Source: Dyella dinghuensis (lineage in GTDB: Bacteria > Pseudomonadota > Gammaproteobacteria > Xanthomonadales > Rhodanobacteraceae). From it: 64,000 bases of DNA. The notes beneath the pieces are model-generated. The model saw only the letters and a list, made by a program, of their open reading frames with translations, had not been told where the DNA came from and ran no database searches. Positions 38,022 through 38,252 of the stretch are shown in pieces (the stretch's first letter is position 1; each line of letters opens with the position of its first letter). The position numbers were made by a program, and so were the translations under genes. The stretch is taken from NCBI RefSeq assembly GCF_003977615.1, contig NZ_RYZR01000005.1:310001-374000 (forward strand), written 5' to 3'.

Positions 38022-38252
38022 TTATCTCACGTAATAGTGACGCCCGGCACCATCGAATTTACCGGACGGCATGCAACAGTTCTTGAAACAACCTCGCGGA
38101 GCCGCAGGGGCATGGATCGTTGCGGCCAAGTTTCTCGAAACAACTCCTTGTTGCCGTGGACGATACGCTCGCCCTTCTTGACCCGCTGCTCGGAGGGATA
38201 ACCCTTCCGGCGTTTACTGCTGCGCTCGAAAGCTGAAATTGTTGGTTGACAT
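38022..38252 (-). pseudogene. SEC-C zinc-motif small protein, coding frame broken at three identical TTT-C sites
   Basis: Joining three frames gives a 75-residue protein: MSTNNFSF, then [14 protein letters not shown]...IVHGNKELF, then [17 protein letters not shown], then [20 protein letters not shown] and stop. CPC and CC with [10 protein letters not shown] are the SEC-C zinc signature found at the end of SecA. The frame moves by +1 at 38228-38231, 38137-38140 and 38085-38088. Each site reads TTT C (G/A)AG, so skipping the C (or removing one T from a TTTC) restores the frame. GAGGAG lies about 8 bases before the ATG and a terminator follows the stop. Unshifted reading stops after 12 codons. 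It is a decayed gene, a recoded gene, or a sequencing error; the identical sites make plain decay hard to accept. Confidence 0.75.

Follow-up and report, generated by a model that had tools for sequence, protein, structure and literature searches.

The bacterial genes closest to the one described here are those in which the ribosome moves one base forward at a single place. The release factor 2 gene, prfB, has one slip site with UGA as the next codon, and its internal Shine-Dalgarno sequence lies three bases upstream of the slip codon. YopN-TyeA, rhizobial ICE, and PA-X have one site per gene, and to our knowledge recoding in bacteria involves one shift per gene. Bacterial ribosomes are known to be prone to +1 slips at UUU_Y, which is the place of the +1 shifts in Yersinia YopN-TyeA, rhizobial ICE, and influenza A PA-X (UCC_UUU_CGU), and the prfB site is UUU_U in a small minority of species (PMC5009743). 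At UUU-CAA, scarcity of tRNA-Gln makes wild-type tRNA-Phe slip, with the product confirmed by sequencing, and tRNA-Phe that lacks its A37 modification slips as well (PMC3617221). Several forward shifts have been described for Euplotes nuclear and Perkinsus mitochondrial genes, and their positions are conserved in Perkinsus (PMC9550989, PMC10235951). Single UUU_Y shifts are thus already known, and we found no report of their serial use in a bacterial gene in the literature searched. Searches on SEC-C with frameshifting, on frameshifted bacterial genes, and on tRNA arrays with SEC-C gave no report of the gene, and the GeneTack survey (PMC3711429) makes no mention of SEC-C in its main text.

The window, by which we mean the whole stretch of 64,000 nucleotides of Dyella dinghuensis DNA that was analyzed, carries on its minus strand a small SEC-C gene (Table 1). 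From the ATG (38252-38250), the unshifted frame contains only 12 codons and then a stop. When TTTC is read as Phe, a complete 75-residue protein results from exactly three four-base steps (F8, F38, and F55), ending at the TAA (38024-38022). All three sites read TTT C (G/A)AG (38231-38229, 38140-38138, and 38088-38086), and the zero-frame codons that follow S1, S2, and S3 are CGA, CGA, and CAA. The remaining two Phe codons are TTC. These are the features on which the initial annotation was built, namely an ATG behind a good ribosome site, three minus-strand TTT-C sites affecting three of five Phe codons, and a full-length SEC-C protein only if three +1 moves are made, and all of them are borne out by the sequence. 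It had also called the stop and terminator intact; this holds for the stop, while the stem-loop and T-run can be recognized by eye but were not reported by a terminator scan. The joined protein matches the Pfam SEC-C family (PF02810) with 38.1 bits against a cut-off of 20.4 (E 1.3e-9). NCBIfam has no model for the family, and none of its models reaches its cut-off on the joined protein. An internal Shine-Dalgarno-like stretch precedes S2 and S3 and is absent at S1. Outside the coding region, the ribosome site is preceded by a short hairpin with a TATGAT-like box 5' of it, both in the window (38271-38297) and in the leaders of L045, L190, L047, L048, and L049; the hairpin arms differ between species by eye, and the leaders of L044, L046, and L189 show neither box nor hairpin. 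Directly upstream on the same strand is an AIPR (PF10592)/AbiU-like gene of phage-defence type (38358-40058).

Table 1. Positions of the SEC-C gene, its segments, and neighboring signals within the window.
Feature	Position	Strand	Basis
SEC-C gene needing three +1 shifts, start to stop	38022..38252	-	read from sequence
Segment 1: codons 1-8, first frame; terminal codon TTT = S1 (TTT_CGA)	38229..38252	-	
Segment 2: codons 9-38, +1 frame; terminal codon TTT = S2 (TTT_CGA)	38138..38227	-	
Segment 3: codons 39-55, +2 frame; terminal codon TTT = S3 (TTT_CAA)	38086..38136	-	
Segment 4: codons 56-75 and stop TAA, first frame again	38022..38084	-	
SEC-C zinc motif, residues 43-61, interrupted by S3	38067..38124	-	PF02810, E 1.3e-9
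AAGGAG, Shine-Dalgarno-like, 3 bases 5' of S2 TTT	38144..38149	-	
GAGG, Shine-Dalgarno-like, 3 bases 5' of S3 TTT	38092..38095	-	
GAGGAG, ribosome site for start codon	38260..38265	-	
Possible leader hairpin GCTCC-ATCA-GGAGC	38271..38284	-	seen in sequence; aligned leaders
Possible -10 box TATGAT	38292..38297	-	seen in sequence; promoter scan reported none
Terminator-like stem-loop and T-run	37991..38020	-	by eye; terminator scan reported none

Within the genus, the gene is present in 8 of 16 genomes, and strong matches (E 6.5e-13 or better) place it in 15 of 61 genomes when its own genome and 60 relatives are considered. The joined frame of eight Dyella-group genes, which share a mean nucleotide identity of 84%, gives a mean dN of 0.061, a mean dS of 1.03, and a largest dN/dS of 0.12. 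After S1, the variable columns fall mostly on third positions of each segment's own frame, with counts at the three codon positions of 4/5/23, 1/0/11, and 6/5/15 for segments 2 to 4; segment 1, of which six codons were compared (5/1/4), is too short to tell. Judged by this pattern of substitution, the joined frame is under purifying selection in Dyella. An orthologue alignment had been proposed to see whether the sites are kept, and it finds S1 as TTTC or TTTT and both S2 and S3 as TTTC in all eight genes. TTG before S2 and S3 is likewise found in all eight, and AGG before S3 in seven, with AGA in the other; among 29 mechanically chosen window ORFs, AGG accounts for 2.4% of Arg codons and TTG for 19% of Leu codons. 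The two patterns that the annotation had named as refuting it, an intact TTC-bearing gene or decay at random positions in close relatives, do not appear in the genus, and no match listed for the own genome and its 60 relatives holds the whole protein in one open frame.

The family extends well beyond Dyella. Among GTDB species genomes there are at least 24 loci, which belong to Dyella, Rudaea, Povalibacter, Dictyobacter, and MAGs with titles that name Gammaproteobacteria, Alphaproteobacteria, Acidobacteria, Chloroflexi, Omnitrophota, Verrucomicrobia, Planctomycetes, Armatimonadetes, Acidimicrobiaceae (partial), and others. Wider searches used a profile built from 18 joined proteins. Strong matches occur in at least 4 of 369 gammaproteobacterial genomes, a set in which 21 passed E 1e-9 and 17 of these, all below 45 bits, were taken as the bare SEC-C motif. 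By phylum, and with the centre genomes included in the counts, the profile found at least 11 of 350 (phylum of L041), at least 7 of 347 (L050), at least 3 of 240 (L036), and at least 2 of 237 (L038). With a capped number of candidates scored per genome, neither the relatives, the GTDB species genomes, nor the phylum-wide profile searches have an intact copy among their matches, although such a copy should outscore the broken ones. Among mobile elements, no relative was found in the viral contigs searched, 10 phage records matched without any spanning 80% of the protein and were taken as bare SEC-C motifs, and copies are present in two Manganitrophus records among the 40 of 86 plasmid records listed. 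The Manganitrophus plasmid copy L162 is degenerate and sits next to genes for a SIR2 protein and for an ATP-binding protein. Several other copies have individual peculiarities. Those of L168 and L173 (Chloroflexota) have ATA at the expected start codon with a good ribosome site 5' of it, and the acidobacterial L051 appears by eye to contain an insert of ~50 bases in the N-terminal half (about 4950-5000). In Rudaea, a second copy that is N-terminally truncated (L196, G023:C1:878300-879100) lies ~16 kb from the first and retains TTG-ATT-CGA at S2 and TTT_CAA at S3.

A simple reading rule was applied to 53 loci, comprising the window and 52 others after exclusion of same-genome repeat copies, the second plasmid, and the truncated Rudaea copy. 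From possible starts, every in-frame TTT with a C or T after it counted as one Phe step. This TTT[CT] rule gives a full product to a stop in 37 of the 53 loci, and L170, a locus with a variant motif that the search pattern missed, also passes, making 38. Plain reading without a shift yields a full product in one locus (L181), where it begins at a doubtful internal ATG that lacks a clear ribosome site. Out of 183 codon-plus-base rules TTT[CT] was the best, and the runners-up were TTT[any] with 24 and CAA[any] with 11. Some passes depend on the choice of start or first site: in L185 and L041 the first site that lets them pass is an alternative one, L193 needs an upstream TTG as its start, and reading of L190 began at an upstream GTG, with trimming for the selection analysis. 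The misfits number 15 when L170 is counted as fitting. Four of them are otherwise full and have one break that is not UUU_Y, namely TTG-ATT-CGA in L043 and L049, TTT-ATT-CGA in L183, and TTT_GAA in L166. L168, L173, L191, and L194 depart from the rule in other ways, and seven loci (L051, L056, L162, L171, L172, L174, and L180) are degenerate or partial by appearance. An unshifted in-frame TTTY near the start is found in L194, in L193 when read from its more natural start, and in L173 if it starts at ATA.

The 37 rule-passing genes contain 103 sites in total, with three sites in 25 genes, two in 10, four in 2, and fewer in none. By construction of the rule, re-pairing from UUU to UUY is possible at all 103. 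The zero-frame codon after TTT is CAA at 31 sites, CGA at 23, TGA at 18, TAG at 12, TAA at 5, and something else at 14, so that the RF2-type feature of a stop right after the slip codon is present at 35 of 103 family sites and at none in the window. Which sites are used varies by lineage: S1 is present in 36 of 37 genes and S3 in 35, S2 is found in Dyella and three others, and S4 or S5 may be added. The context of S1 is often UCC_UUU or AGC_UUU, and a few genes have six or seven consecutive T there. The C-terminal site S5 occurs in 13 genes. Twelve of these have TTT_TAG, after which the +1 frame reads Arg, and in 9 of the 12 it reads RE and then a stop; the thirteenth (L178) has TTT_TTT and then FRE. 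An in-frame RE ending without S5 is found in several relatives, for example L033, L037, L038, L052, and L195, and L175 ends in TTC-TAG, again with no S5. The Shine-Dalgarno-like duplex has a family mean of -7.0 at S2, -4.9 at S3, -0.7 at S1, and -1.2 at S5, being weak or absent at the last two. The TTT-C motif of the initial annotation therefore describes the window correctly, but the family motif is broader, being UUU_Y at two to four sites of variable position.

From this conservation of sites in the Dyella group and in other phyla, serial programmed +1 ribosomal frameshifting very probably expresses a real protein gene, as the annotation had proposed. The need for two to four slips in relatives across phyla points to a frame switch built into the gene and speaks against damage. 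In this reading, a peptidyl-tRNA-Phe with anticodon GAA would occupy UUU at each site, and the codon that comes next in the zero frame, CGA or CAA in the window and also UGA, UAA, or UAG in other lineages, would be slow to fill. The tRNA-Phe would then advance one base onto UUC or UUU, and translation would proceed in the shifted frame. The window gene would require three such slips, at S1 (codon 8), S2 (38), and S3 (55). A forward slip of tRNA-Phe from UUU to UUC, which the annotation judged reasonable, agrees with the published behavior of UUU_Y (PMC5009743, PMC3617221), and S3 of the window is UUU-CAA, matching the published slip site. Reinitiation of separate ORFs was considered and rejected by inference, as in 12 of the 13 genes with S5 this site lengthens the protein by just one to three residues, and it is the joined frame that is conserved.

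Several other explanations of the broken frame have to be weighed against serial frameshifting. The one raised at the outset, that three T insertions in an otherwise intact gene mark a pseudogene or a systematic sequencing error, could draw on the three frame breaks, on the two plasmid records in which no gene is annotated over the match (the gene table there is incomplete), and on the seven degenerate or partial loci. It is contradicted by the conserved sites and by dN/dS, as the same sites persist in eight Dyella-group genes at a dS of about 1 with the mean dN given above, equivalent sites occur across several phyla in independent isolates and MAGs, and the matches include no intact copy that should have outscored the rest. 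We regard it as extremely improbable. The accompanying argument that random decay would not produce the same change three times is upheld, as the homologues read are broken at the same places or at equivalent ones, with exceptions. That RNA polymerase slippage or RNA editing repairs the frame ahead of translation is very improbable as well. Nothing specific speaks for it, apart from the six or seven T at S1 in a few genes, and against it the frame breaks at a codon for Phe that can re-pair with UUY. Many sites are merely TTTC, too short for known polymerase slippage. A special factor or tRNA that reads UUUY as a true four-base codon, for example an array-borne tRNA-Phe with an altered loop, seems quite unlikely to us, even though 38 of 53 loci obey the rule, a G37 tRNA-Phe lies near the gene in L043, L173, and L166, and position 37 of tRNA-Phe has been tied to +1 slipping (PMC3617221). 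The Dyella genome still keeps three sites with a single ordinary tRNA-Phe, the array tRNA-Phe of L179 has A37, and UUUY is read without a shift in ordinary window ORFs. A search by family model, which too unusual a tRNA would escape, gave 48 tRNA hits in the own genome, including one tRNA-Phe(GAA) with a seven-base loop and A37; with no enlarged or altered-loop tRNA-Phe among them, a dedicated frameshift tRNA in this genome was rejected. A genome-wide four-base UUUY code was likewise rejected, as the 29 window ORFs, which together have 13,354 codons, contain 65 in-frame TTTY without a shift, and these together with the one normal tRNA-Phe argue against a general four-base code.

A different kind of alternative accepts the shifts as real but considers them neutral, with harmless insertions fixed at slippery UUU_Y, as argued for Euplotes, and no sensor or switch. 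The variation of site positions by lineage is consistent with this, and abundant non-regulatory shifts have been published (PMC10235951, PMC9550989). On the other hand, each of the 37 rule-passing genes has at least two sites, ordinary ORFs are unshifted, and the TTG and AGG codons before S2 and S3 are kept in Dyella. Statistics on 28 genes, the 37 minus nine near-duplicates, also argue against it: with relatedness uncorrected, the number of sites is less variable than with shuffled columns (p 0.0045), and S2 or S4 never occurs together with S5 (p 0.004). We consider neutrality unlikely, though a serious contender.

If serial frameshifting is what expresses the gene, full-length output should be the product of two to four slip chances, which would keep it near zero in healthy cells and let it rise steeply when slipping becomes likely. 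The trigger may be a shortage of or damage to tRNA, or an under-modified tRNA-Phe, and the SEC-C protein may act in the response to tRNA shortage or damage. A role as a steep sensor of tRNA shortage is a tentative proposal that we put at somewhat less than an even chance. We are equally guarded about its more specific form, an AND gate whose output would multiply the chances of two to four independent UUU_Y slips. The gene might then serve as an ultrasensitive, ribosome-read detector of scarce tRNA or of under-modified tRNA-Phe and feed into RNA-repair and tRNA-array emergency loci, and selection would act on the number of slips and not on their places.

The surroundings of the gene in some phyla touch on this idea. 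Seven of 53 loci (L033, L043, L164, L165, L172, L181, and L192) have RtcB (PF01139) within about 5 kb of the gene, while about 0.09 loci are expected by chance under a simple Poisson calculation that assumes 4.8 Mb genomes and the observed RtcB copy number and does not correct for relatedness. Slipin-like genes are nearby in five loci and HNH genes in four, and L181 has SEC-C, HNH, slipin, and RtcB in that order on one strand. Arrays of 8 or more tRNAs (8, 22, 23, and 28) are present in 4 of 47 scanned loci; the gene sits inside the array in L043, L173, and L179, and that of L033 lies at a distance of 2 to 4 kb. The G37 tRNA-Phe genes, at L043:3519-3606 (TTGAAGC), L173:11403-11480 (CTGAAGC), and L166:16072-16150 (CTGAAGG), may encode tRNAs that escape the usual A37 modification; two of the three sit in tRNA arrays, and the tRNA-Phe of the L179 array is A37. 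Just downstream of the SEC-C gene in L164, whose S3 is TTT_TAA, ARAGORN reports a tRNA with anticodon TTA, which would read UAA (L164:7715-7787). The Dyella gene has a plainer setting. No tRNA was found in the window and no RtcB in the own genome at E 1e-30, and in the genus RtcB is present in 4 of 8 genomes with the gene and 4 of 8 without it. RtcB was rejected as a required partner on account of its absence from the own genome and these equal counts, and the same observations, along with the window's lack of tRNA, keep the sensor role a tentative proposal.

A parallel for the RtcB setting is found in Anabaena, where the targets of the TrcR repressor include the trn operon as well as separate genes for RtcB, HNH, and slipin, and where translational stress releases rtcB together with the long trn operon (PMC10272220). 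The term SEC-C is absent from the text of that paper. RtcB, slipin, HNH, and tRNA arrays are near the SEC-C gene in some phyla as they are among the TrcR-controlled genes, but the Dyella gene differs from the Anabaena set in having no RtcB/tRNA-array locus in the window. Where it does occur, this setting makes the sensor idea testable, and should output follow a power of the slip rate, the gene would be a translation-stress sensor of new design. The protein resembles the SEC-C/SecA-like metal-binding proteins (YecA, YchJ, and the SecA tail) in its CPCGS...CC motif and differs from them in that most members read are stand-alone proteins of 75-86 residues with a basic N-terminal part.

In mechanism, a close comparison is with prfB, with which the gene would share a +1 peptidyl-tRNA slip on NUU_Y before a slow next codon; S2 and S3 also have an internal Shine-Dalgarno-like stretch upstream. 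Unlike prfB, it has two to four sites, its next codons in the window are CGA and CAA, and its product is no release factor. The UUU slip codon and the +1 direction would be shared with YopN-TyeA, rhizobial ICE, and PA-X, but here three sites are packed into 75 codons. In Euplotes and Perkinsus, recoding is a widespread eukaryotic phenomenon at stop or unused codons, whereas the present case is one bacterial gene in a genome that is otherwise read in the ordinary way. Genes of this type would be hard for gene finders to detect, and conserved small genes that look broken merit re-examination. The gene would also offer a natural assay of reading-frame maintenance at UUU_Y, and as a 75-codon gene that keeps two to four shifts across phyla, it would be the densest bacterial case known to us.
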